A stretch of 49,752 nt of DNA from Phycisphaerae bacterium (lineage in GTDB: Bacteria; Planctomycetota; Phycisphaerae; UBA1845), in NCBI GenBank assembly GCA_029260215.1, contig JAJDDQ010000062.1:1-49752 (forward strand), read 5' to 3'. Below the pieces are notes generated by a model. That model was not told the origin of the DNA and made no database searches. It saw nothing but the letters and a program-made list of their open reading frames with translations. Positions 3,628 to 18,213 of the stretch are shown here, piece after piece; within the stretch, counting starts at the first letter, position 1; the number at the start of each line of letters is the position of its first letter. The translations under genes were made by a program, and so were the position numbers.

Positions 3628-4772
3628 TATAAGTGGCGGTCGGCAGGGGGTTTAGCCCCGGCCACGATGATCTCTAAACTATTGTCGTAAATATGGATAC
3701 AACTTTCCGCTGAGCACGCCGCCCCGACGTGTGTCTTGAGCTCCTGCTGGAGGAGCCAAGGTAGACGCTCTGCGATTGTGTCGCGTAATCGTTGAGCCAA
3801 ATCCGAGTCGGTTTCATACAAACAGTCGGATCGAAGTTGAGCCGGAATCAGTTCGGGGTAGGCCAACCGATTCGGCAGCAACGGTCGGCAGCCGGCCAAG
3901 ATGGCTTCGGCGGTTGCGATTCCGAAATTCTCCTGGATCGCGGTGCTGACGACGATGTCGCCGGTGCAAAGTCGCCGCCAGTACTCATCGCGGCTCTTGG
4001 CGTACCCACGGGATACGATCCGGGATTCCAGTTGTTTCAGTCCGGATTGAAACGATTGTGGAATCTCCCGAAAATGCTCGCCAAGCAGCGCAAGCCGGAA
4101 CGGCACGCCTGCGGCGTCAAGCTGGAAGAGCGCCTCGAAAAACGGTTCCGGGTTCTTGTCATACTCCCAGCGGTGGTTCCAAAGGATGACGGGCGGGCCA
4201 TCGTCACGATCTTGATACGCGTCGGCAGGCGGGGATTCAACCAGCGGGCGTAGCACGATGCTCTTTTCTCGGATTCGATCCATTATGCCTTCGGGCACGA
4301 AGTCGGGCATCTTACGCAGGAGCTGGTCGGCTGTGGTCAAGAAGGCGTGCATATGGTAGTTCGAATTGAACCAAACCGCGTCGGCGGCGAGGCAACTGGT
4401 GATGTTGGTGAAGCCGAACTGATAGTCGCGCCAATCGTGCTCCGAAAGCGGATAGGTAAGCTGATTCTCGTGAAAATAGCAGATGATCGGGCAACGCGCG
4501 ACCTCCGGTGGCAGCAACGCCCGCAAGTCGGCCACGCTAAGCATATCGTTTGTCAGGATGAGATCGAATCCGTCGGACGTCGCGGCGGCCACTTCCTTGG
4601 CGAACCACATGGCGGCCCCGCGCATGCGCCATTTCCACTTACGCGCAGGCAGCGTTAGCAGGGTGAATTCGTGCTGGCTGAGGCGCGCAAGCGGTGCCCA
4701 GAAGGCCCGATGGGAGCCGCCGTCATAGGGTTCCAGCCCCAGTATTCGTAGTTTACGCCCCGCCTCGGGCAA
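3627..4772 (-). CDS. glycosyltransferase of the tRNA-queuosine alpha-mannosyltransferase (QTMAN/GTDC1, DUF3524) family
   Basis: 381 residues with a TTG start. The N-terminal family signatures are present in order: EPYDGGSH at about 14-21, PARKWKWRMRGAAMWF at about 42-57, CYFHENQLTYPL at about 98-109 and AADAVWFNSNYH at about 129-140. A GT-B nucleotide-sugar binding half follows, with LWNHRWEYDKNPE, a TGDIVVSTAIQENFGIATAE motif and AGCRPLLPNRLAYPELIP. The animal member of this family (GTDC1/QTMAN) transfers mannose from GDP-mannose to queuosine in tRNA-Asp. The bacterial member is expected to modify queuosine or a related substrate, but that is not shown here. The product is soluble with no signal peptide. 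A queuosine gene (queG) lies at 46 kb. The gene sits 50 bp downstream of the beta-helix protein gene. Confidence 0.85.
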   Translation of the reverse strand: MPEAGRKLRILGLEPYDGGSHRAFWAPLARLSQHEFTLLTLPARKWKWRMRGAAMWFAKEVAAATSDGFDLILTNDMLSVADLRALLPPEVARCPIICYFHENQLTYPLSEHDWRDYQFGFTNITSCLAADAVWFNSNYHMHAFLTTADQLLRKMPDFVPEGIMDRIREKSIVLRPLVESPPADAYQDRDDGPPVILWNHRWEYDKNPEPFFEALFQLDAAGVPFRLALLGEHFREIPQSFQSGLKQLESRIVSRGYAKSRDEYWRRLCTGDIVVSTAIQENFGIATAEAILAGCRPLLPNRLAYPELIPAQLRSDCLYETDSDLAQRLRDTIAERLPWLLQQELKTHVGAACSAESCIHIYDNSLEIIVAGAKPPADRHL

Positions 4773-4822
4773 ATACTTGACCCCCCTGTCGTTTGGATCG
4801 GGACGTTTGATTGTAGCCTTGC

Positions 4823-11376: not shown

Positions 11377-11397
11377 CGAATGACGCGCGTCAACGCC

Positions 11398-12444
11398 CTA
11401 GTCCGCGTCATTGATCGCGTTAATCAGATGGCGCAATCGCCCGACGCTCCTGCGATTGAAGCGGAAGACAAGTCTCGGCAGACTGGCCAACTCTCCGTCT
11501 TCAGCCGGCAGAGGTTCGAACACCTGCCGAATTTCCGAACCGGATGTGATGTCGCTGAATTCCTGATTCAGCTTGAGCAGGTTTGGATCGGACAGCGACG
11601 ACTGCATACGCAGCACGATCTCATCCTGAACGTACCGCGACGAATGATACCGGCGGTAATAGTGAAGAATTTCCTTCATGGCGTCTTCCGCCGAATCGGT
11701 CAGGAAGAAAAGGTCCATGTCTTCGGGGCTGATCATCATGTTGCCCAGCAACTCCGCCTTCACATACGTACGCCAATGCTGCCAATACGTACCGCCCGGC
11801 TCATCGACCAGCACTACAGGGACCGGCTCGGCTTTACTCGTTTGGACGAGCGTGAGCGCTTCAAACCCTTCGTCCTGCGTTCCGAATCCGCCGGGGAACA
11901 GGACGATGGCTTTAGCCTCTTTCATGAACATCAGCTTGCGCGTGAAAAAGTATTTGAAATTAACGAGTTTTTCATCGCCGGCGATGGTCTCGTTTGTGTC
12001 CTGCTCAAACGGCAGCGCGATAGCCACGCCGAAACTTTTCTCGCGCGTCGCACCCTCGTGACCGGCGTGCATAATGCCGTCGCCCGCCCCGGTAATGACC
12101 ATCCAGCCGCTCTCGCGCATGATCCGCCCGAACTTGACAGCCTGCTGGTACTGCGGGTGCTCCTTGGGCGTCCGCGAGGAGCCGAAGATCGAGACCTTGG
12201 GCACCTCTTCAAACGGTGCGAATACTTTGAAAGCGTAACGCAGCTCCTTCAAGGCCCGATTGAGTATCTTGATCTCACCACGACCGCAGCCGTCGGCGGC
12301 CAGACGGGTGATGGTGACCATCATATCTTCCAGAAGATCCTGACCGTCGCACGGGGCGAACGTGTCGAGGAATTGCTTGCAGGCTTCGGCGCGTGCCTTG
12401 GATCGCTCTTCGCGATTGGCAAAAGTAATAGTTTGTTCGCTCAT
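11398..12444 (-). CDS. LOG-family nucleotide-monophosphate phosphoribohydrolase-like protein
   Basis: 348 residues with a GGAG-like site before the ATG. The LOG core lies at about 95-260: VSIFGSSRTPKEHPQYQQA, FGRIMRESGWMVITGAGDGI, then the family signature PGGFGTQDEGFEAL. An N-terminal helical extension (about 90 residues) and a C-terminal helical tail are longer than in the small plant-type LOG enzymes, as in the large bacterial group often mis-annotated as lysine decarboxylase. Small LOG enzymes release the base from nucleoside monophosphates; the substrate of this long form is unknown. It precedes yacL by 21 bp on the same strand. Confidence 0.88.
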   Translation of the reverse strand: MSEQTITFANREERSKARAEACKQFLDTFAPCDGQDLLEDMMVTITRLAADGCGRGEIKILNRALKELRYAFKVFAPFEEVPKVSIFGSSRTPKEHPQYQQAVKFGRIMRESGWMVITGAGDGIMHAGHEGATREKSFGVAIALPFEQDTNETIAGDEKLVNFKYFFTRKLMFMKEAKAIVLFPGGFGTQDEGFEALTLVQTSKAEPVPVVLVDEPGGTYWQHWRTYVKAELLGNMMISPEDMDLFFLTDSAEDAMKEILHYYRRYHSSRYVQDEIVLRMQSSLSDPNLLKLNQEFSDITSGSEIRQVFEPLPAEDGELASLPRLVFRFNRRSVGRLRHLINAINDAD

Positions 12445-12785
12445 TGGTGTCTCCGTTTCAAATCATCCAAGCCGCAAATAGTAACCCGATGCGACCGGCA
12501 ACGCCATCCCACCGCCCCACCGGAGCGACAGGTGAATCCTCCCGGAAAACCTCCCAGCCCCACCACGGTTTACGAGCCGGAAGTGGCTTGCCGTTTAGCA
12601 GACGCCGATTCCACACGGAGCGTCCTCTGACATCGTAGTCGTCCGCCAACGGTGACACCCACCGACCCTTTCGGGACTGGCCGGGCGACGCCGGCGAAAA
12701 AAACGTTCAAATGATGAAAAACCTTTGAGCGGACACCGGTGGTCAGCCTACACTGTCAGTGCGGTGTTCGGAGGGAGGGTTGCAC
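12445..12785. other. 341-bp non-coding gap between divergent genes
   Basis: This gap separates the LOG gene (minus) from the PEP-CTERM gene (plus), so promoters for both should lie here. The Shine-Dalgarno run GGAGGGAGGG at 12771-12780 serves the plus-strand gene. A short minus-strand open frame (12458-12658) may or may not be real. I see no strong terminator, tRNA or repeat. Confidence 0.6.
12458..12658 (-). CDS. short open frame of uncertain reality
   Basis: 66 codons from a GTG at 12658. The translation is rich in Trp and Arg (RSVWNRRLLNGKPLPARKPW, then WGWEVFREDSPVAPVGRWDG) and looks more protein-like than the plus-strand reading of the same DNA. It would end 14 bases before the LOG start and could be translationally coupled to it. 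No clear Shine-Dalgarno precedes the GTG, and no family is recognised. Confidence 0.2.
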   Translation of the reverse strand: MSPLADDYDVRGRSVWNRRLLNGKPLPARKPWWGWEVFREDSPVAPVGRWDGVAGRIGLLFAAWMI

Positions 12786-15182
12786 ATGTTTGCTTATAAA
12801 AACCGGGTTCTGATCGTCTGGCTGGCTATTGCTGGCGGGCTGCTTTGTGGGGAAGCGTCGGCGGAGGTGATCGGGGCGTTTGAAATCGTGCGGCACGAGT
12901 TCTGCGGCAGCGGGTCGGCCGACCTGACCGATGCGGGGTTGCCGCCGCAATCCGACGAATTCTGTAATCTCGGAGGCCCGCCGGACACGGTCGGTGGTGG
13001 GTTTTGGGCATCCGACCGAACGCAGCCTGGAAGTCTAGGTGCCGGGGTAGAGGCCCGAGGTGGGTCCACCACGACCCCGCTTACAGGCGGTGGACTCCTC
13101 GTCAATATTCAGATAATCGCAATCTACCGTCCCTCAGCGTTTCCGGGTGGCAGCAATCCCGGCGGCGTGGCTGAGGGTGAGTTCATGTCCGTGCTTGAAT
13201 TCCTGCTGCCGTCTGATGGCCTTACCGCCCCATACCAGTTTCGAATAGATCAGGATTTCCCATTTGATGGGTCGGCGAGCGTCGAGATGGAAAACATGAC
13301 GCAGTCCTTCGGAATCCTCAATCTCGATGCACACGTGGGAGTGTCCGTTACACCACCGCTTGGCGAGGCGGGTGATCTTATCCGCATCACTTCAATGATG
13401 CAGGGATCGGGGAGTATGGGTCCGGGTTCGCGAAAGGAATACGAGGCTTTCTTCGAGTTGGTTTTGCTTCCTGTCCCAGAGCCTTCAACCGCCTTGATGT
13501 TGTTCTTTGGAACACTGATGACCACCCGCCGAGTCCGCCGCGAACGTATCTTGTCCAACATATTTTCGCGCGGGCGAATGGGGTTTCGGCGACCGGAAGA
13601 TTCCAGGGAGTTCACACCGATGCGACGGCTCGCTTCATTTCGGTACGCAGCGTTGATCGCCCTGCCGTTCTTCGTTACGGGGATTTCATCCGCCGAACCG
13701 AGGAACGTTATTGTCGGCGTGGATGCGGAACTGTACCTTGAGTTCAATTCGGCCACCGGTGCCGCCCACCCCGTCACCGGCGTCGGGCAGGGTGAATTCG
13801 ATAACATCCAAGCCCTCGCGTTCGACCGCAACACGAACACGCTTTACAGTATGAGCGCTGCCAGCGACCAACTCATCGCCATCGACCCTGACACTGGAAT
13901 CGGTACGGAAATCGGATCAATGAGTTGCCAAATGGTCTCCGCTCTCGCATTCGACCCCAACGCCAACGTGCTCTACGCCGCGCCCGTGTTCGGTACCGAT
14001 TTAGTCGCGATCGATCTTCAAACGGCGGAATGCTCGGTCGTCGGACAATTCGGCCAAGGACTCGTCCTTGGGATGGCCTTCGATGACTCGACCAACACAC
14101 TCTACGGAGCCGACTCGCTCGACTACTCATTGATTGCGTTCAACACCGTGACAGGGGTCACACAAACCATTGGAAGCCTGGGAACGACCGGCGATTCAGC
14201 CGTCATGGCGATGGCCTTCGACTCGAACAACCACAAGCTCTACGGGCTGCAAATAGAAACGAACCAGCTACTGGCCATCGACCCCGACACAGCCGCCATC
14301 ACCTTCATCGGCCCGCCCGCGTTCAACGACAGGCAGTCCCTCGCGTTTGATTCGGGCAGCAACACCTTGTTCGCCATGAACGAGGACACATTCCAGTTGG
14401 TGACGCTGGACATCGAGTCGGGGCTGGAGACACCAGTCACGCCGCTTGGTTTCGACAACATTCGCGGGCTGGCTTTCGATCCGGACAGCTACACGCTTTA
14501 TGGCTCGACCGTCGATTTCTTCGGCACGGGTCAACTCATCACGATCAATCCGCGAACCGGTGCGAGCACGGTAGTCGGCGACCTCGGCTTTCGCCTCGTT
14601 GAGGGCCTCGCGTTCGATGCCAACTCTGACACCCTTTATGGGTCAGACATTTTTACGGACCAACTTATCACCATCGACACGGCTACGGGCGTCGGTACCG
14701 AAGTCGGCGCACTGGGCATCAATTCCGTACGCGGCTTAGCTTTTGACGCGGCAACGGACACGCTCTACGGCGCAGACACGTTCGGGAATCAACTCGTTGC
14801 TATCGACGTCGCGACGGGGGCGGGCACACCCGTGGGGCCTCTTGATTTCGGATTCGTCGATGGGCTTGCTTTCGACCATCAGTCCAACACGTTGTACGGG
14901 ACGGAGGCTGTGACGGATCAGTTGCTGGTCATCGATCCTGTAAGCGGGTCGGGAACAGCCGTTGGCGACGCGGAATTCGATAACATCAAGGGCCTCGCCG
15001 TTGTTACCGTCGAGTTCGCCCTCGACGACTTCGCGGGCATGGTGGAGTGTGCTGCCGGCGTCGGGGAACAATTGCCCGATGAGGCGTGTCATCGTTTTGA
15101 CTTCGACGAGGACGAGGATGTTGATCTGATCGATTTTGGGGCGTTTCAACACACATTTACGGGATCGATTTACGGATCATGA
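12786..15182 (+). CDS. PEP-CTERM protein whose frame reads through into a beta-propeller/dockerin-like protein
   Basis: Start ATG at 12786 behind GGAGGGAGGG. The first part is a PEP-CTERM protein of about 255 residues: signal peptide MFAYKNRVLIVWLAIAGGLL, a strand-rich domain with SNPGGVAEGEFMSVLEFLLP, MTQSFGILNLDAHVGVSV and SMMQGSGSMGPGSR, then the sorting signal VPEPSTALMLFFGTLMTTRR followed by VRRER. The paralogue at 15285-16079 stops six residues after its own basic end, but this frame has no stop there. It continues through about 20 residues into MRRLASFRYAALIALPFF, a second signal peptide, then the propeller. Either the stop was lost, fusing two genes, or the junction contains a sequence error. 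A sorting signal and second signal peptide in the middle of one polypeptide would be hard to process. Confidence 0.7.
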   Translation: MFAYKNRVLIVWLAIAGGLLCGEASAEVIGAFEIVRHEFCGSGSADLTDAGLPPQSDEFCNLGGPPDTVGGGFWASDRTQPGSLGAGVEARGGSTTTPLTGGGLLVNIQIIAIYRPSAFPGGSNPGGVAEGEFMSVLEFLLPSDGLTAPYQFRIDQDFPFDGSASVEMENMTQSFGILNLDAHVGVSVTPPLGEAGDLIRITSMMQGSGSMGPGSRKEYEAFFELVLLPVPEPSTALMLFFGTLMTTRRVRRERILSNIFSRGRMGFRRPEDSREFTPMRRLASFRYAALIALPFFVTGISSAEPRNVIVGVDAELYLEFNSATGAAHPVTGVGQGEFDNIQALAFDRNTNTLYSMSAASDQLIAIDPDTGIGTEIGSMSCQMVSALAFDPNANVLYAAPVFGTDLVAIDLQTAECSVVGQFGQGLVLGMAFDDSTNTLYGADSLDYSLIAFNTVTGVTQTIGSLGTTGDSAVMAMAFDSNNHKLYGLQIETNQLLAIDPDTAAITFIGPPAFNDRQSLAFDSGSNTLFAMNEDTFQLVTLDIESGLETPVTPLGFDNIRGLAFDPDSYTLYGSTVDFFGTGQLITINPRTGASTVVGDLGFRLVEGLAFDANSDTLYGSDIFTDQLITIDTATGVGTEVGALGINSVRGLAFDAATDTLYGADTFGNQLVAIDVATGAGTPVGPLDFGFVDGLAFDHQSNTLYGTEAVTDQLLVIDPVSGSGTAVGDAEFDNIKGLAVVTVEFALDDFAGMVECAAGVGEQLPDEACHRFDFDEDEDVDLIDFGAFQHTFTGSIYGS
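13620..15182 (+). CDS. secreted beta-propeller protein with dockerin-like C-terminus (internal start)
   Basis: An AGGGAG nine bases before the ATG at 13620, plus the signal peptide MRRLASFRYAALIALPFFVT with cleavage near SSA, suggest that this 520-residue protein is made on its own. The body has about nine repeats of 40-46 residues following GLAFDxxTxTLYGxDxxTxQLIxIDxxTGxGTxVG, for example GLAFDANSDTLYG and QLITIDTATGVGTEVG. This is an NHL/YVTN-like beta-propeller pattern. The tail has a degenerate dockerin-like element, FDFDEDEDVDLIDFGAFQ, in which the usual D-x-D-G is D-E-D-E-D. The protein should be exported and may bind or display something at the surface; its ligand is unknown. It is in the same frame as the upstream PEP-CTERM gene with no stop between. 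Confidence 0.7.
   Translation: MRRLASFRYAALIALPFFVTGISSAEPRNVIVGVDAELYLEFNSATGAAHPVTGVGQGEFDNIQALAFDRNTNTLYSMSAASDQLIAIDPDTGIGTEIGSMSCQMVSALAFDPNANVLYAAPVFGTDLVAIDLQTAECSVVGQFGQGLVLGMAFDDSTNTLYGADSLDYSLIAFNTVTGVTQTIGSLGTTGDSAVMAMAFDSNNHKLYGLQIETNQLLAIDPDTAAITFIGPPAFNDRQSLAFDSGSNTLFAMNEDTFQLVTLDIESGLETPVTPLGFDNIRGLAFDPDSYTLYGSTVDFFGTGQLITINPRTGASTVVGDLGFRLVEGLAFDANSDTLYGSDIFTDQLITIDTATGVGTEVGALGINSVRGLAFDAATDTLYGADTFGNQLVAIDVATGAGTPVGPLDFGFVDGLAFDHQSNTLYGTEAVTDQLLVIDPVSGSGTAVGDAEFDNIKGLAVVTVEFALDDFAGMVECAAGVGEQLPDEACHRFDFDEDEDVDLIDFGAFQHTFTGSIYGS
13812..15003 (+). repeat. tandem coding repeats of the beta-propeller (about nine units)
   Basis: Units of about 129 bases each begin with the codons for (A/G/S)(L/M)AFD and run to the next. 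Units 8 and 9 are the most alike, pointing to recent duplication at the C-terminal end, while the N-terminal units are more diverged. The repeats are coding and are not a CRISPR array. Confidence 0.8.
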
Positions 15183-15211
15183 TGGTGAAGCTTGTCGGAA
15201 ACGATCGGTCA

Positions 15212-15259
15212 ATCGAATCGAGTGGAGAGAGTTCACAGAATTGGTCCAGCCGATTCGAT
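15212..15259. repeat. 9-bp inverted repeat upstream of the second PEP-CTERM gene
   Basis: ATCGAATCG at 15212-15220 pairs with CGATTCGAT at 15251-15259 across 30 bases, between the propeller stop and the Shine-Dalgarno of the next gene. It could be a leader or weak terminator hairpin. Repeats of this size are expected a few times by chance in 50 kb. Confidence 0.3.
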
Positions 15260-15284
15260 CTTAGAGGGCAGGGAGAGATGGTTC

Positions 15285-16079
15285 ATGCATAACAAGTCCA
15301 GTAGTTTTCTCGTGGCGTCCCTTGCGGTTTCCTGTTTTCTGATCGCGACAGCCGTCGAGGTTTGCGGCGAAACGATTTTTGTTGCCGATAGCGCGGGGGG
15401 AAACGGGATATGGCAGTGGACCCACGCCGCGTCGGGCAGCGGTTCGGCCAATGTCTATGATGGGGGCCCAACTGAAGTTGGCGATGGGACTGCACGTGGC
15501 CCCAACAATACAATCATGGTATTTGGTGCATCGGATAGCACGATGCTGGGAAGTTTCGGTGCGCGCGCATCAGCGTCCGGAAGGTCAAGGATATTATCTG
15601 AAAATAACCGCAGTCTTAGGTTTCGCGTCAACTTCAACGTTGGCTACAACCCTTCGTTGCAGTCCGGAGGGGACAACCCCGGCGGCGAGGCGGAAGGAGA
15701 GTTGCTTTCCGTCATCGAGTTTCGTATGCCGGCGAACCAAATATCGTGGTCCTATCAACTTAATTTCCAAAACACTTTCCCGTTACCGTTCGCCGGGACG
15801 GCCGAAATCCTCGTTGAAAACGTTACGCAGTCTGCGGTTGTGCTGGAGTTGGATAGCGAAATCGTCCCTGGGATACTGACGGATCTTCAAGGCAATAGCG
15901 GCGACATGATCCGCGTCACCTCAATGATGTCCGGCAGCGGGTCGATGGGACCGGGCAGCCCCAGAAATTATGGTGTAATTCTCGATATGATCTTCAGCGT
16001 CCCGGAACCAGGGACGTTCTTGATACTTCTGCCGAGCCTGTTTCTTTGCGCCAGAAAACGCCGCGCAAGATCACGATAA
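15285..16079 (+). CDS. PEP-CTERM sorting-domain protein
   Basis: 264 residues from the ATG at 15285, seven bases after GGGAGAG. Signal peptide MHNKSSSFLVASLAVSCFLI, cleavage near CGE. It shares a layout with the protein starting at 12786: DNPGGEAEGELLSVIEFRMP, ENVTQSAVVLELDSEI, IRVTSMMSGSGSMGPGS. It ends with the sorting signal VPEPGTFLILLPSLFLCARK followed by RRARSR. PEP-CTERM proteins are processed at the membrane by exosortase and released or anchored at the surface, often with exopolysaccharide. No exosortase gene is in the window. The two paralogues flank the propeller gene, so one probably arose by duplication. Confidence 0.85.
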   Translation: MHNKSSSFLVASLAVSCFLIATAVEVCGETIFVADSAGGNGIWQWTHAASGSGSANVYDGGPTEVGDGTARGPNNTIMVFGASDSTMLGSFGARASASGRSRILSENNRSLRFRVNFNVGYNPSLQSGGDNPGGEAEGELLSVIEFRMPANQISWSYQLNFQNTFPLPFAGTAEILVENVTQSAVVLELDSEIVPGILTDLQGNSGDMIRVTSMMSGSGSMGPGSPRNYGVILDMIFSVPEPGTFLILLPSLFLCARKRRARSR

Positions 16080-16122
16080 ACCTGCCGCCTGTACCGTAAT
16101 CAAACTGGCCAACTCTCTTCTA

Positions 16123-18213
16123 CTATCGGCGCACAAGCTCGACGGCCAACGATTCGCCCGACCGGAATGCGATCTTGAAGAAGCGGGTGTCGCTGAATCT
16201 GTCGAGGTTCTTCCACATGCGTCGCTCCACAATGCCCACGAAAACGTGCGTGATGCCGTGGCGACGCAGCAGGCGATACGTTTCTTCCGGTGATGCGGGA
16301 CGGCGAAGCACGCCGAGCACTTCCTTGATGGCCAACCGCAACGGGGACAGGTCGGGCGGATCGAAAACGAGGATGTCGTCCTGTTGATCCATAACGCCGA
16401 TCTGCCGCCGAACAAGCTGGGCCAACCTAGCCCGATCAACAGTGCCCTCGCCCTGCACCACCGCGTCGGCTGGCAGGCTGTGACGCATGTAACGCAGTAC
16501 GAGTCCCTCGTCGCGGACGGCTGACCGTTCGTCGGCCGACATCCGTGCGGATTCCCGGTAAAAGTCTGCGTAGCGGCGGGCGGCGGTCAGCGGCGCTTCG
16601 TACAACGCGACGGGCAAGCCCAGGATCAGAACCGCGCCGACCAGAACGGCTTTGACCGTGGCCCCGCGACGCATCGCAATCCGCCAGCCAAGCGGGTTCC
16701 ACCAGCACGTCGCGACCGGTTGGTCGGTCAGGATCGCTCCCGCAGCCACGGCTCCAAAGGCCATCGCGAGAAGAATGGTTTTTTGGCCGAAGTCGTTGTG
16801 ACGCAATTCGGATCGCACCGTGCAAAATGCGAGAACAGAAACCACGGCGCACAAGAGCAGGAACCGCAGGCCGTCGTCGCGCCAGATGCGCCGCCAAATG
16901 AGCGATGGGACCAGTACCAGAAAAAGAAACTTCGCCCCCAACTCCAGCGTCATGGTCAGCGGAAGGTCGAGAAAGTTGGCTGCGATCCCAGGTCCCGTCA
17001 GCCAACCAACCACCCCGTGCGGATTCACAGGCCAATCGAGCGACAAACCTCGACCGTGGTGGCTGGCACCTTCAAGATAGCCTTGAATCGTCGGCCAACA
17101 GAACAGTGTCATTATCGCGCCGACGACGGCGGCGCGCGGAATCAGTCTCGGCTTGGTCAGGGTCCAGAGAACCAGCGCGGGGACAGCCCCCATCGCAACC
17201 CAGACGCTCGTGCCAAGCAGAGACGCACCAAGGATCGGTCCCAGCCAAAGCCAGCACCGTGATGGACCTTTTTCGGACAGCAGGTAGGCGGTCACCAGCA
17301 CGATCAGCAGGCCGGCGACGTTCTGCGGACTCCAGATCATCTGATTGAGAAAATTGTGAATGCGGAACGGGTGCTCCGCCCAGGCGTCGAGCGTCACCAC
17401 AGGCCTACCGAGATCGATGACAAATGGGATCAGGGGAAAAACGTCCAAAGCACCAACGATCGTCACCAGCACGAGCGTCAGCGTCGCAGGCATTTCGCCA
17501 GCCAATCGCTTGGTCAGCATGTAGCACACGCCGACGAGGCCGATCGCGGTCAGCGCGCTGGACAGGCCAAAGGCGAGCTCGTTGCTCAGCGCCTGATTCG
17601 TCCAAACCCGCACCGTCGCGGGGATCAGGTAGAACCAGTGGTAATAATGAACAGGCATGCTCGCGCCGTCGGCGAAAAAGACGTTTCCCAGGGGCAGAGG
17701 CCTGCGGGCGAGCGAATCGAGCACAGCCTGGTGTTTGACGAAATCGTGAATCGTCGATGCCAGCGGAAAACCGAGCATCTCCGTTGGCCAATAGGTCAAA
17801 ATCAAAGGTGGCAGCACTAATAACGCGGTAACGGCGGCCAGAATGCGCGTCCGCCGGTGTTCAAAAAGGCGGTTGGGCGGTTGATCGAGGGTGCGGCGGA
17901 CCGTTGGAATCGCCGTCAGAGCGAGGAGGACCGCGCAGGTCGCGCCCAGCAGGGGCGGGTACTCGTTGGTGATGTGCCAGGCGAGATTGAGAAAAAACGG
18001 CGCAATCGACAGAGAAAGGGCGATGCTCAGGATCGTGCGACCGGCGAAATCCCACCTGGAATCGAGAATCAGCCCCAAAACGAGCCGGCCGGGGAGGTAG
18101 GCCAGGAGCCAGAACCCCGCAATCACACCAAGCGTCGCCCAGCCGGTCGCGTGGGCGATGGTTATGGCGGCGGCGGACAAGATGATCGCCAGGAAGGTCA
18201 TCCCGTGCATCAT
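16123..18213 (-). CDS. large polytopic membrane protein, GT-C-like
   Basis: 696 residues with about 13 hydrophobic segments, beginning FLAIILSAAAITIAHATGWA. A luminal/periplasmic loop after the fourth or fifth helix carries MLGFPLASTIHDFVKHQAVL and GASMPVHYYHWFYLIPATVR, with a conserved-looking HYYHW. The last 170 residues are soluble and contain RYMRHSLPADAVVQGEGTVD and ETYRLLRRHGITHVFVGIVE. That arrangement (many helices, acidic/His loop, C-terminal soluble part with a 'Y-V-hydrophobic-G-x-x-E-R' phrase) resembles GT-C glycosyltransferase-like or DUF2298-type proteins. These use lipid-linked sugars in envelope glycan assembly. Function is inferred. It sits alone between two plus-strand genes. 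Confidence 0.6.
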   Translation of the reverse strand: MMHGMTFLAIILSAAAITIAHATGWATLGVIAGFWLLAYLPGRLVLGLILDSRWDFAGRTILSIALSLSIAPFFLNLAWHITNEYPPLLGATCAVLLALTAIPTVRRTLDQPPNRLFEHRRTRILAAVTALLVLPPLILTYWPTEMLGFPLASTIHDFVKHQAVLDSLARRPLPLGNVFFADGASMPVHYYHWFYLIPATVRVWTNQALSNELAFGLSSALTAIGLVGVCYMLTKRLAGEMPATLTLVLVTIVGALDVFPLIPFVIDLGRPVVTLDAWAEHPFRIHNFLNQMIWSPQNVAGLLIVLVTAYLLSEKGPSRCWLWLGPILGASLLGTSVWVAMGAVPALVLWTLTKPRLIPRAAVVGAIMTLFCWPTIQGYLEGASHHGRGLSLDWPVNPHGVVGWLTGPGIAANFLDLPLTMTLELGAKFLFLVLVPSLIWRRIWRDDGLRFLLLCAVVSVLAFCTVRSELRHNDFGQKTILLAMAFGAVAAGAILTDQPVATCWWNPLGWRIAMRRGATVKAVLVGAVLILGLPVALYEAPLTAARRYADFYRESARMSADERSAVRDEGLVLRYMRHSLPADAVVQGEGTVDRARLAQLVRRQIGVMDQQDDILVFDPPDLSPLRLAIKEVLGVLRRPASPEETYRLLRRHGITHVFVGIVERRMWKNLDRFSDTRFFKIAFRSGESLAVELVRR

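Follow-up and report, generated by a model that had tools for sequence, protein, structure and literature searches.

The cytochrome b/c1 precursor FbcH of Bradyrhizobium contains two exported units in one open reading frame (ORF), with an internal signal peptide that is cut by signal peptidase, and in virus polyproteins that host signal peptidase cleaves, a stop-transfer helix is followed by an internal signal peptide. Substrates of the PEP-CTERM/exosortase system combine a signal peptide, a PEP motif, a hydrophobic helix and a basic cluster, in genomes with exosortase genes. In the part of Haft et al. 2006 (PMC1569441) drawn on here, the PEP-CTERM signal lies near the extreme C-terminus, with fewer than ten further residues in 87% of cases and a median of three, and the very few long-tailed cases are suggested to be possibly non-functional. 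Here, we describe a locus in the Phycisphaerae bacterium assembly GCA_029260215.1 (contig JAJDDQ010000062.1, of which a stretch of 49,752 nucleotides (nt), hereafter the window, was analysed), at which gene 1, for a small predicted exosortase substrate, and gene 2, for a large beta-propeller protein, share one ORF on the forward strand and the sorting signal lies inside that ORF.

FbcH is the nearest known bacterial analogue, in that the window likewise encodes two predicted exported units in one ORF, the second of which begins with a putative signal peptide inside the frame. It differs in having no sorting signal at the joint, in being a conserved respiratory protein and in having its processing shown experimentally, whereas processing of the window product is deduced from sequence. 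With the virus polyproteins the locus shares the order of a predicted stop-transfer helix and a putative internal signal peptide, but it is bacterial, joins two unrelated surface proteins, has an exosortase-type first helix and retains a separate start for gene 2. Gene 2 has the repeats and fold of DUF4394/DUF6923 beta-propeller proteins and, unlike them, is attached behind another secreted protein. The elements of a PEP-CTERM substrate listed above are present, the signal peptide being a putative one read by eye, and the genome has exosortase genes, but unlike the published substrates, as described in that part of the same study (PMC1569441), the motif is not at the extreme C-terminus and has about 546 residues after it; the ancestral gene 1 would have carried it in the usual terminal position. 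A literature search found nothing on fused exosortase substrates, PEP-CTERM polyproteins or PEP-CTERM signals with an internal signal peptide. The explanation that we favour, with moderate confidence, is that two adjacent secreted-protein genes were fused by loss of the gene 1 stop codon, a change that would be topologically neutral and leave both domains exportable and separable.

The open reading frame and its junction

Inspection of the reading frames found a single open frame from the ATG at 12786 (or a GTG at 12759) to the stop codon at 15180-15182, confirming that the absence of a stop between the PEP-CTERM tail and a second signal peptide, claimed in an earlier note on this DNA, is real in the assembly. 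Gene 1 (12786-13547), delimited by sequence, family matches and AlphaFold, comprises a signal peptide (MFAYKNRVLIVWLAIAGGLLCGEASA, about 12786-12863, called by eye), an all-beta domain and a PEP-CTERM tail. The sorting signal was located at 13470-13541 by PF07589 and TIGR02595, with VPEP beginning at 13473 and the basic cluster RRVRRER finishing at 13547. It is followed by a stop-free linker of 72 nt (13548-13619), which spacer lengths in relatives lead us to read as a probable former intergenic spacer plus the 5' leader of gene 2. Within this linker lies an AGGGAG Shine-Dalgarno sequence (13605-13610), 9 nt upstream of the ATG at 13620 from which the second signal peptide starts (MRRLASFRYAALIALPFFVTGISSA, 13620-13694, called by eye). 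The remainder of gene 2 (13695-15182) encodes a propeller, an acidic tail and the stop codon. The next gene on the same strand, a paralogue of gene 1 identified by sequence match (15285-16079), has a normal stop at 16079 directly after its own PEP-CTERM tail. Both the ribosome site of the second signal peptide and the stop of the paralogue had been described in the earlier note and were found as described.

One alternative is a sequencing or assembly error, in which case the organism would in fact have two ordinary genes, the first ending at a stop behind its PEP-CTERM tail. The fusion was found in a single assembly of 88 contigs, the relatives of gene 1 with visible ends all have stops, and several linker codons are one substitution away from a stop. 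However, two forward frames are free of stops throughout 13440-13720, and the remaining one is free of them between 13521 and 13654. With no frame offering a stop in the linker, a one-base insertion or deletion at another linker position could not hide one and is ruled out, so that only an error falling on the stop codon would serve. Frame 0 is moreover intact through the tail and gene 2, and open joints of the same design occur in five other genomes (see below). An error is accordingly regarded as improbable. An open linker is in itself unremarkable: between 56 and 75% of Markov-simulated 72-nt linkers stay open in frame, before the correct frame is demanded, which makes loss of the stop codon itself the rare step.

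The start of gene 2 appears to have been retained. Predicted pairing with the anti-Shine-Dalgarno sequence is -7.7 kcal/mol at the ATG at 13620, compared with -11.9 kcal/mol for gene 1 (Shine-Dalgarno GGAGGGAGG, 12770-12778, forward strand) and -8.2 kcal/mol for the gene at 15285. Among 1407 ATGs of the window, 4.1% match or beat the value at 13620 and only 0.3% are as strong as gene 1; within the ORF, the ATG at 13620 ranks fourth of 46 in-frame ATG, GTG and TTG codons and second of 19 in-frame ATGs. These good Shine-Dalgarno matches at both ATGs are consistent with the proposal in the earlier note that two starts could yield a long and a short product. A scan of 12600-16200 for sigma-70-like promoters returned no match, with 1.6 expected by chance, and nothing therefore points to gene 2 having its own promoter.

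Domains and sorting signal of the two proteins

The gene 1 motif scored 21.8 bits against PF07589 in the genome search, over the cut-off, and 17.5 bits by hmmscan, under the cut-off of 20.7, whereas TIGR02595 (cut-off 16) gave 18.7 bits with the whole ORF and 20.4 bits with gene 1 alone; PEP motif, hydrophobic helix and basic cluster are all present. The genome has four PF09721 exosortase matches, the best two of which are strong (E 4e-59 and 7e-48). From 12864 onwards, gene 1 is modelled by AlphaFold as an all-beta domain with a C-terminal helix, at a predicted local distance difference test score (pLDDT) of 87.7. Fold search returned only weak matches, to beta proteins that include carbohydrate-binding modules (best E 6e-4, template modelling score 0.27), and because of this weakness no function is claimed.

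Gene 2 matched the DUF4394 and DUF6923 profiles at 65.5 and 52.3 bits, above the respective cut-offs of 29.6 and 27. Its AlphaFold model has a low overall mean pLDDT of 68.6 with repeated strands, and a fold search of the PDB with it returned propellers. The acidic tail, in which Pfam gave no match, is presumed to be EF-hand/dockerin-like.

Ancestral state of the two genes

To infer the state before fusion, gene 1 was compared with its family, which has 12 matching stretches in its own genome and matches in seven other genomes (100 searched, own included), and gene 2 was searched on its own in 150 genomes. A scan of the gene 1 family alignment against genome contigs gave 22 loci, all in Phycisphaerae or Planctomycetota metagenome assemblies, and a scan of the whole fused protein against the genome contigs found no relative. 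The alignment of gene 1 with its family spans the whole gene, and the arrangement of signal peptide and PEP-CTERM tail is preserved. Viewed in context were 52 family members, the window member included; none of the other 51 was seen to be fused, three of them running off contig ends and some having broken frames, and the longest tail noticed (about 70 residues, in G014:C19) has no second signal peptide before its end. The closest relatives of gene 1 are a tandem pair in G015:C577 (tree support 99/99), both with normal stops and overlapping each other by four bases, and a protein with a beta-helix match begins 62 nt further on. The possibility that gene 1 is a recent copy of the gene at 15285 was ruled out by their identity of 41% over the match and their separate positions in the tree.

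The orthologue of gene 2 in G014:C21 (50-52% identity) has its own start and signal peptide, and its similarity to gene 2 begins within that signal peptide. Reading by eye, no same-strand PEP-CTERM gene was found in the 1.5 kilobases before it, and there is an opposite-strand one nearby (L065:2037-2933). Since the relatives of gene 1 and the orthologue of gene 2 are separate, the two window genes were most likely separate once, with the linker their former spacer. This agrees with the proposal of the earlier note that loss of a stop joined two neighbours. That note had also named a stop in a sister genome as a sign against the fusion; stops are indeed present in the relatives, but we read them as the ancestral state and not as a refutation.

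An arrangement of a small PEP-CTERM protein gene before a gene for a large secreted protein recurs in the family, with 13 of the 52 members closely preceding a beta-helix-type neighbour (loci L066, L068, L067, L071, L109, L114, L116, L112, L028, L137 and L133). These neighbours were recognised by their N-terminus (a YVDxDATG-type start), and the two tested gave beta-helix or Chlam_PMP profile matches. The label of a beta-helix neighbour clustered on the gene 1 tree no better than in shuffles. In the nine such cassettes for which a neighbour start was chosen, the spacer from stop to start is 62-109 nt, to which the 72-nt window linker is comparable. At three of 16 other borders, one found by script and two by eye, an open in-frame spacer means that loss of a single stop would be enough for a fusion of this kind.

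Internal PEP-CTERM signals in related genomes

The own genome has 36 PEP-CTERM matches. Of the 30 whose loci were examined, 29 have tails that stop 0-20 residues past the motif, and the window ORF is the only run-on. The survey was extended to PF07589 matches at E <= 0.002, comprising 127 from seven genomes, 139 from 14 genomes and 28 from the own genome (294 in 22 genomes of the taxonomic family), and a motif was called internal when more than 100 residues follow it. Viewed were 119 of the 294, namely the 28 own matches, 16 in frames of more than 400 amino acids, 67 in frames of 275-400 amino acids and eight same-size family members; the remaining 175, in frames under 275 amino acids, were not opened, and the resulting count is thus a lower bound. 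At least nine of the 294 are internal, in six of the 22 genomes: one each in the window, G016:C68, G016:C76, G010:C257 (L177) and G011:C37 (L272), and two each in G032:C449 and G013:C28 (L170). Outside these nine were a third joint in G032:C449, a second fused ORF in G016:C76 (L311:920-2296, side by side with the first at L181) and an IPTL-CTERM-like joint in G032:C73 (L144), the last with a TIGR04174 match at E 0.0068, below its cut-off. The 67 frames of 275-400 amino acids have a median tail of two residues, with 55 under ten, close to the values of 87% and a median of three in the part of the published study drawn on here (PMC1569441). The view of the earlier note that a mid-protein sorting signal is unusual thus holds for the own genome (1 of 30) and for that part of the published account, whereas across the taxonomic family it is a minor recurrent pattern. 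On sequence grounds the window fusion is best regarded as one case of a small recurrent class of predicted internal sorting signals.

The best-scoring motif among the 127 is an internal one of G032:C449, and the internal motifs of relatives therefore need not be decayed, though that of the window is weak. This bears on a second alternative, that the fusion is real but unprocessed, with both hydrophobic segments serving to anchor one long protein, or with gene 1 decaying, its run-on product degraded and only gene 2 functional from its own start. Such an outcome would fit the suggestion, in the part of Haft et al. 2006 (PMC1569441) cited above, that the few long-tailed motifs are perhaps non-functional, as well as the weak score of the window motif and the loss of the motif in G014 from the counterpart of the neighbouring PEP-family gene. 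Against it stand the full-length alignment of gene 1 with its family, in which its layout is kept, and the strength of the G032:C449 motif, and we consider it unlikely.

Design and conservation of the joints

Behind each of the nine internal motifs lie a basic loop and then a stretch resembling a signal peptide (eight measured, one by eye). Across the ten joints measured, the loop behind the first hydrophobic segment carries a net charge of +3 to +9 and leads to a second such segment, of mean hydropathy 1.8-3.2, that resembles the core of a signal peptide, and the same order of elements was seen by eye at the G011:C37 joint and at the second G016:C76 joint. The script picked the most hydrophobic 12-residue stretch past each motif, and signal peptides were judged by sequence and hydropathy; a second segment is thus found by construction, and only its strength and setting are informative. 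In a junction-profile alignment the linkers aligned poorly, and the alignment was set aside. The occurrence of similar joints in related genomes suggests that such fusions may be harmless or cut apart after export.

Two loci bear on whether any of these ORFs has been selected as a polyprotein. In G032:C449 (L143:1980-4337), four look-alike secreted units lie in one ORF with three joints, the last unit lacking a PEP-CTERM end, and this looks like the clearest polyprotein-like case seen. In G016:C68 (L176, around 4950), there is no in-frame ATG, GTG or TTG between the motif and the second hydrophobic core, so that fusion seems almost the only way in which the 1383 residues behind the joint, with PMP-type repeats, could be produced with that signal. 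Together with the recurrent cassette of a small PEP-CTERM and a large secreted protein, these loci are what would be expected if fusions were kept for a fixed proportion of both surface proteins. However, gene 2 in the window still has a start and a ribosome site separate from those of gene 1, and no fused joint was found common to two genomes: a search with four fused ORFs of relatives in 51 genomes of the taxonomic family gave no joint-spanning match in another genome. Several homologues of the first unit of G010:C257 lie in long frames. The 19 matches in other genomes that were opened, chosen mostly for long frames, contain no PEP-CTERM joint: either their frames continue into different domains or they finish with an ordinary tail. 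A twentieth match, from G016, proved to be the additional fused ORF at L311. Two units in one ORF were thus seen, but not a fused state conserved between species. The fusions accordingly look like repeated, lineage-specific events, which favours tolerated loss of a stop over an old selected polyprotein, and we give selection for fixed proportions little credence. An old conserved architecture is ruled out as far as it could be tested in the 100 genomes searched for gene 1, the 150 searched for gene 2 and the 51 searched for the fusions of relatives.

A possible route to fusion by stop loss

The sequence of events that we favour, assuming a correct assembly, is that the stop of gene 1 was lost in this lineage, joining the gene to gene 2. 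Judged from the start sites, ribosomes initiating at 12786 would then make a two-domain precursor and those initiating at 13620 the propeller alone. The first signal peptide would export domain 1, the PEP-CTERM helix would run from outside to inside, the arginine-rich linker would stay cytoplasmic, and the second signal peptide would run from inside to outside and export domain 2. The basic loop fits the positive-inside rule. Cutting by signal peptidase before EPRNVIVG and by exosortase at the PEP motif may then release both mature proteins as before. Because topology would be preserved across the joint, a stop codon at such a border may be dispensable, and this neutrality would explain repeated fusions in the taxonomic family. 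A bolder and more tentative reading is that, in this planctomycete family, a sorting tail followed by an internal signal peptide is a recurrent joint of true secretory polyproteins, in which one ribosome pass yields two to four surface proteins separated by exosortase and signal peptidase at each membrane hairpin, with the window a young case that keeps its second start.

Several observations weigh against the stop-loss scheme. Its expression and processing steps are drawn from sequence features; the fusion was seen in one assembly only, and the genomes searched include none of the same genus. The codon statistics of the linker are intermediate, scoring below 89% of coding stretches and above 91% of off-frame ones, with a training set that included an ORF at 11379-12627 on the forward strand that is probably a shadow ORF. 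The window hairpin is also the least ideal of the ten measured, with a loop of 41 residues as opposed to 10-22 in the others and a sorting helix of hydropathy 1.67, the lowest of all, and the motif ranks 28th of the 36 PEP-CTERM scores of its genome. In a crude control, 11 of 18 ordinary next ORFs after own-genome PEP-CTERM genes look secreted too, which makes the nine of nine only mildly unexpected. Finally, the fusions of relatives are not conserved, and nothing therefore indicates that selection favours being fused.

The occurrence of at least nine internal signals among 294, with an apparent second export signal behind them, suggests that borders between genes for exosortase substrates and genes for other secreted proteins can lose a stop at little cost, as topology is preserved. 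Stop loss at such borders would offer a simple and testable route to bacterial secretory polyproteins. For annotation, it is a warning that ORFs of this kind should not be filed as one long protein without comment.

Neighbourhood of the gene 2 orthologue

As in the window, a member of the gene 1 family follows the orthologue of gene 2 in G014:C21, and the tree does not join this member with the gene at 15285. A short tandem duplication near 4770-4797 disrupts the frame of the orthologue (L065:4235-5855), and the PEP-CTERM motif has been lost from the PEP-family gene that follows the orthologue (L065 5888-6679).

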